Assembly (NCBI RefSeq): GCF_000003605.2
Contig: NW_003124920.1
Span: 145,118-167,050, forward strand
Reading direction: 5' to 3'
Source of the DNA: Saccoglossus kowalevskii
Taxonomy: Eukaryota > Hemichordata > Enteropneusta > Harrimaniidae
Length of the DNA: 21,933 nucleotides
The notes beneath the pieces are model-generated. The model was given only the letters and a program-made list of their open reading frames with translations. It made no database searches and was not told the DNA's origin. Positions 2,590-19,967 of the stretch are shown here, piece by piece (position 1 is the first letter of the stretch; every line of letters starts with the position of its first letter). The position numbers and the translations under genes are program-made.

Positions 2590-2650
2590 ATGCACGCGAG
2601 AAACATCGCTATCGTTCTTGCTGCGGTTCTGTCACAAATATCCGCTCTAG
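2582..2650 (+). promoter_or_regulatory. Overlapping upstream ORF at the start codon
   Basis: An ATG at 2582 lies 8 nt upstream of the assigned start (2590) in another frame. It opens a 22-codon frame that ends at TAG 2648-2650, inside the signal-peptide codons. The upstream ATG has T at -3 (weak context), whereas the 2590 ATG has A at -3 (good context), so leaky scanning to 2590 is expected. The uORF exists in the mRNA only if transcription or the 5' UTR exon starts upstream of 2582. Confidence 0.35.

Positions 2651-19967: not shown

Follow-up and report, generated by a model that had tools for sequence, protein, structure and literature searches.

The DNA analysed here (the window) is a stretch of 21,933 nucleotides, free of N, at the end of contig C1755 of Saccoglossus kowalevskii (C1755:145118-167050), and it contains a large gene of 29 exons on the forward strand. 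The exon chain, built by eye and then by script, runs from position 2590 to 19967 of the window, with an ATG at 2590 and a TAA at 19965-19967. The coding sequence comprises 6345 nt including the stop, and among its 2115 codons the script found a single stop, at the end, giving a product of 2114 amino acids (aa). GT-AG ends are present in 27 of the 28 introns; the sole non-GT donor is that of intron 20 (15297-15725), a GC-AG intron within the pentraxin domain, where, as judged by eye, splicing from the nearby GT would disrupt the reading frame. Exons 3-10, 13-16, 22-24 and 28 have phase 1 at both ends, and exons 25-27 jointly form one phase 1-1 block. Phase 1-1 exon borders allow extracellular modules to be duplicated or moved with the frame preserved. 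An earlier note on this DNA had stated that all 28 junctions keep frame over 6345 nt, and the script bore this out, with one terminal stop and with splice ends and phases intact.

The domain content was determined by a Pfam search of the protein in two parts (E <= 0.001), in which all reported matches exceed the curated cut-offs. Exons 1-2 (2590-3615; aa 1-229) hold the start, a hydrophobic, signal-peptide-like N-terminus and a VWA domain (aa 57-215; 100.2 bits). They are followed by an EGF-like cysteine-rich segment and the first ephrin-receptor-like module in exons 3-4 (4567-5453; aa 230-340), three sushi modules in exons 5-7 (5837-6959; aa 341-531; Sushi recognized in three stretches), two HYR modules in exons 8-9 (7779-8704; aa 532-696; two stretches, 113 bits) and a divergent sushi in exon 10 (8870-9103; aa 697-774). 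Next to exons 11-12 (9353-10649; aa 775-953), which have no Pfam match at E <= 0.1, come three more ephrin-receptor-like modules in exons 13-15 (11253-12091; aa 954-1115), each a 162-nt exon (Ephrin_rec_like, four stretches in all, 164.9 bits). Six EGF modules in exons 16-18 (12459-13752; aa 1116-1343; EGF matched in eight stretches of the protein, 174.2 bits; modules counted by eye) and the pentraxin domain in exons 19-21 (14595-15876; aa 1344-1551; Pentaxin, 99.7 bits) complete the front part. An RGD at aa 761, in exon 10, was given no weight.

Beyond the pentraxin domain, exons 22-23 (15986-16613; aa 1552-1664) encode three EGF modules, again counted by eye, and exon 24 (16775-16897; aa 1665-1705) encodes an EGF of the calcium-binding type (cbEGF; EGF_CA, 33.1 bits). 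One VWC with ten cysteines occupies exons 25-27 (17008-17436; aa 1706-1768; 33.0 bits), VWD (100.6 bits) and C8 (59.9 bits) lie together in exon 28, a single exon of 837 nt (17807-18643; aa 1769-2047), and exon 29 (19765-19967; aa 2048-2114) carries a TIL with ten cysteines, counted by eye (42.8 bits), and the stop. An AATAAA at 20391-20396, 424 nt past the stop, is by its motif a possible polyadenylation signal. The order from VWA to pentraxin and then EGF, cbEGF, VWC, VWD, C8 and TIL is thus supported by the domain search of the product that the earlier note had proposed as a check, and the tail of VWC, VWD, C8 and TIL after three EGFs and a cbEGF lies above the Pfam cut-offs throughout. So does the statement hold that the long sushi array is missing: aa 1116-2114 gave no Sushi match at E <= 0.001. 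The VWA (exons 1-2), pentraxin (exons 19-21) and VWC (exons 25-27) domains straddle splice junctions, and chance open frames would not yield domains that continue across them.

Five segments, namely sushi 1, sushi 2, exon 3, exon 10 and exons 11-12, were run against Pfam separately. Tested alone, sushi 1 and 2 gave matches of 35.1 and 29.3 bits, and exon 3 proved EGF-like yet below the cut-off (EGF_3, 21.9 against 28.5 bits); neither exon 10 nor exons 11-12 gave a match at E <= 0.1. However, exon 10 aligns (35%, 3.5e-15) with the exon at the same place in a neighbouring gene on the reverse strand of C1755, and a similar exon in a neighbour on the forward strand clears the Sushi cut-off (22.9 against 20.7 bits); exon 10 was therefore read as a fourth sushi. 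Exon 11 has a match (29%, 2e-8) in the reverse-strand neighbour, and a PDB search with exons 11-13 returned nothing useful. The SVEP1-type order from VWA to pentraxin given in the earlier note is thus right, by Pfam and, for the fourth sushi, by way of the neighbour gene, except that the EGF-like segment after VWA had been omitted. According to the earlier note, the agreement with SVEP1 extends to the module counts.

The window also contains repetitive sequences. A dispersed repeat is present in two copies, at 8158-8390 in intron 8 and at 18746-18974 in intron 28, which share a 179-nt core (84% alike) and a 38-nt part (89% alike). A second repeat occurs in three stretches (6038-6210, 14155-14251 and 21260-21433); its inverted ends look MITE-like by eye, and parts of it match in both orientations. 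Intron 11 harbors an inverted repeat at 10076-10212, with 63-nt arms that are 78% complementary and 11 nt apart. No Rfam family matched the window at gathering scores.

Relatives of the gene were looked for in the same genome (572 Mb in 4830 contigs). The pentraxin query gave 105 matches, many of them within a single open frame. Pentraxin arrays on three contigs (17 matches on C350, 31 on C4257 and three on C996) account for 51 of the 105, mostly in one open frame, a marked expansion of the family. At two sites outside the window the pentraxin domain is split over several exons, one on C1172 and one on the reverse strand of C1755. Behind the C1172 pentraxin, tblastn gave 44 sushi-type matches (E <= 0.01, overlaps removed) between 15481 and 25433, largely within a single open frame of 6.6 kb, with an EGF after them; from the pentraxin onward, this locus reads as a sushi-array polydom. 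The gene on the reverse strand of C1755, from about 109.7 to 97.8 kb, shows sushi, two HYR, the fourth sushi, an exon-11-like segment, three ephrin-like modules, EGFs, pentraxin, EGF, sushi and cbEGF, as far as it was read (that is, to the cbEGF). A further polydom-like gene closely precedes the window on the forward strand (C1755, 125639-137997), with sushi, many cbEGF, ephrin-like, HYR and sushi among the modules read. Identity per exon between the window gene and the reverse-strand gene is 29-48%, with the exception of an 11-residue piece at 73%, and the introns within the pentraxin domain of C1172 and of the reverse-strand gene stand at places different from those in the window gene. Because of this low identity and these differing intron places, the polydom duplications look old. 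Since the genome has a sushi-array polydom and two more genes of the polydom type, the product of the window gene is best regarded as a polydom-type protein that has diverged and carries another tail.

The joined architecture appears real as a gene model, and the exon structure indicates that it is probably one gene. Introns 21 to 27 measure 109, 289, 161, 110, 123, 117 and 370 bp, and the last intron 1121 bp, by script; because introns 21-26, from the pentraxin to the end of the VWC, span only 109-289 bp each, two genes are unlikely to have been joined by mistake. A fusion in the model is nonetheless conceivable, either of two tandem genes or of one gene with a fragment: a polydom-type gene would then stop after exon 21 or 24, and the last exons of a VWC-VWD gene would lie behind it. 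Polydom-type genes do cluster on C1755, an AATAAA lies at 16908, 11 nt inside intron 24, and false domain architectures are known to stem from errors of gene prediction and from confused paralogues (PMC3927612, in the part available). However, introns 21-26 are too short to house a 3' UTR, a spacer, a promoter and a first exon with a signal peptide, the in-frame open stretch ahead of exons 22-28 amounts to just 8 to 23 codons, and splice ends and phases are intact in a window without N, so that we regard such a fusion as highly improbable. AATAAA or ATTAAA motifs, common in this region, number eight in 13753-19764, and a signal-peptide scan for the start of a second gene did not discriminate: nine hits fell in 13753-17806, compared with a rate of about 1.4 per kb across the window as a whole. 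Given the AATAAA at 16908, a short isoform is conceivable. The weakest link of the gene model is exon 29, because the last intron is 1121 bp long and contains a copy of the dispersed repeat.

The earlier note had described the tail as that of BMPER/crossveinless-2 (CV2). The order VWC, VWD, TIL does agree with BMPER (PMC6456722, in the part available), but VWD-C8-TIL units are not confined to BMPER: the 33 PDB sequences matched by the tail are led by FCGBP, followed by VWF, MUC5AC, MUC5B and MUC2, plus a luciferase, and none of the 33 was a chain named BMPER. Within the same genome, 41 matches to the VWD-C8 exon were obtained, itself included, the next five with identities of 37, 39, 29, 28 and 42% over parts of the exon, and no BMPER orthologue was identified among the next-best matches examined. 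The gene on C1006 was considered as BMPER-like and rejected, as it has two VWD-C8-TIL units close together. VWC matches number 24 in the genome, of which 16 are on the forward strand of C3296 (24352-74288), an array that may belong to a kielin/chordin-like gene. At the position of the GDPH motif, the VWD of the window gene has VTGQ at the same spacing. In a pattern search, GDPH was recognized in only one of 12 VWD starts of this genome (the loci examined, window included; three further pattern rows were left out as chance matches outside VWDs). GDPH is thus often absent in this genome, and its lack in the window gene argues against BMPER-type processing and does not speak for any single origin of the tail. 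For exon 28 alone, AlphaFold2 gave a poor model (mean pLDDT 40.2), which was left out of account.

With such relatives of solved structure, the tail could instead act as an assembly module like those of mucins and VWF, in which case the D-type module would form disulphide-linked dimers or polymers and make the polydom part multivalent rather than tether it. Besides the FCGBP, VWF and mucin matches, clusters of VWD matches on several contigs of this genome, the two adjacent VWD-C8-TIL units on C1006 and the 170 cysteines of the 2114-aa protein are in keeping with this idea. Against it, the protein has just one D module, and the single VWD of BMPER has been reported as a tether (PMC6456722, in the part available); we give assembly a small but appreciable chance.

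A different function was proposed by the earlier note, in which the tail binds BMPs in the manner of CV2/BMPER and the polydom part positions it in the matrix. According to the available text of PMC6270503, CV2 binds BMP through the Clip, eight residues ahead of the first VWC1 cysteine, together with subdomain 1 (SD1) of VWC1. In the window protein only five residues, MDTSY, separate the last cysteine of the cbEGF from the first of the VWC, so that there can be no counterpart to the eight-residue Clip, and the single VWC immediately precedes the VWD, the position that VWC5 has in BMPER. What the two proteins would have in common is thus the tethering end and not the BMP-binding end. When the VWC was compared with the PDB up to E = 10, six matches appeared, three to NELL2/NEL (1.4e-4 to 2.5e-4), one to chordin (0.06) and two to LECT2; CV2 was not among the six, the presence of its VWC1 in the library being unconfirmed. 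The points that favour a BMP modulator are that the order VWC, VWD, TIL is that of the BMPER C-terminus (PMC6456722, in the part available), that the VWC keeps its ten cysteines, that chordin, a BMP binder, is a weak match behind NELL2/NEL, and that the lack of a Clip is not decisive, for BMP-binding VWCs have little sequence in common and many are without a Clip-like segment (PMC6270503, in the part available). Because such Clip-less VWCs exist, the protein might still bind BMP by another mode. Yet CV2 uses the Clip and SD1 of VWC1, while here there is one VWC without room for a Clip and without the GDPH motif behind it; BMP control in the matrix is accordingly not supported, and we consider a matrix-placed BMP modulator very unlikely. 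A BMP role of the tail is, in short, unlikely, yet testable. A bolder variant, to which we would give similarly little credence, is that a polydom lineage took up a whole CV2-type C-terminus, so that a VWA/pentraxin scaffold with a heparan-sulphate-tethered D module might position growth factors (BMP or others) by contacts unlike those of the Clip.

We favour, with moderate confidence, the interpretation that the window holds one gene for a secreted, polydom-type (SVEP1) matrix protein with three EGFs, a cbEGF, VWC, VWD, C8 and TIL in place of the sushi array, a protein that would combine a modular adhesive platform with a tethering D-type tail. Such a gene could have arisen by duplication among polydom genes, with tail exons exchanged or gained (an order of evolution that we infer), and the phase-1 introns that bound the tail modules would have permitted their addition with the frame unbroken. 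The part with VWA, HYR, EGF and pentraxin would serve as an adhesive platform as in other polydoms, and the D-type tail may anchor the protein to the cell surface or to the matrix via heparan sulphate, as does the VWD of BMPER, which is cleaved at GDPH and binds heparan sulphate proteoglycans (PMC6456722, in the part available). By this analogy, a matrix or heparan-sulphate tether is a likelier role than BMP binding, secretion and tethering both being predicted. A genome with both a sushi-array polydom and this gene, whose front part is kept and whose tail is changed, provides a natural experiment on what the front part can do by itself.

The functions of vertebrate SVEP1 do not extend to this protein in the same way. 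SVEP1 binds Tie1 via CCP20 and integrin alpha9beta1 via EDDMMEVPY in CCP21 (PMC10281526, in the part available); EDDMMEVPY was searched for in the 2114-aa protein and is absent. As CCP20 and CCP21 belong to the missing sushi array, the Tie1 and integrin functions should not be carried over. Of the 'integrin/matrix-type modules' of the earlier note, the integrin part is thereby weakened, since the alpha9beta1 site lies in the missing array, and the matrix tether is retained as a probable function.

Compared with known systems, the protein shares with vertebrate polydom/SVEP1 the order VWA, ephrin-like, sushi, HYR, EGF and pentraxin (PMC12549020 and PMC10281526, in the parts available). It differs in having VWC, VWD, C8 and TIL instead of the post-pentraxin sushi array with the Tie1 site of CCP20 and the integrin site of CCP21, and the absence of this array excludes an SVEP1 of the vertebrate type. 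Whether the protein counts as a polydom in a wider sense depends on how the family is defined, for the cnidarian polydoms have six sushi. In these proteins (NvPolydom1-3 of Nematostella and those of Hydractinia and Hydra), the domains after the pentraxin are PAN/Apple, FA58C, six sushi and CUB, and other additions occur in shorter polydom-like proteins; cnidarian polydoms thus also have non-standard tails, but none of VWC, VWD, C8 and TIL in the available text of PMC12549020. Variation of the tail is therefore already known in the family, and the version described here is new in the sense that no polydom with a VWC-VWD-C8-TIL tail was found among the open-licence papers listed, by titles and the beginnings of abstracts. 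Reports on starfish or mollusc SVEP1-like or kielin-like proteins, or on polydom as a complement regulator (PMC10448888, PMC5460417, PMC6368272 and PMC6683126), do not, in the parts available, mention this architecture. Together with the cnidarian tails, the window gene suggests that the family retains a core from VWA to pentraxin and varies what comes after it. With BMPER/CV2 the protein shares the C-terminal VWC, VWD and TIL (as given in the part of the literature available), and it is different from them in its one VWC instead of five, in having no room for a Clip as in VWC1 and no GDPH, and in its polydom-type front part. With the D units of FCGBP, VWF and the gel-forming mucins it shares VWD-C8-TIL, which here occurs once, at the C-terminal end of a protein of the polydom type.
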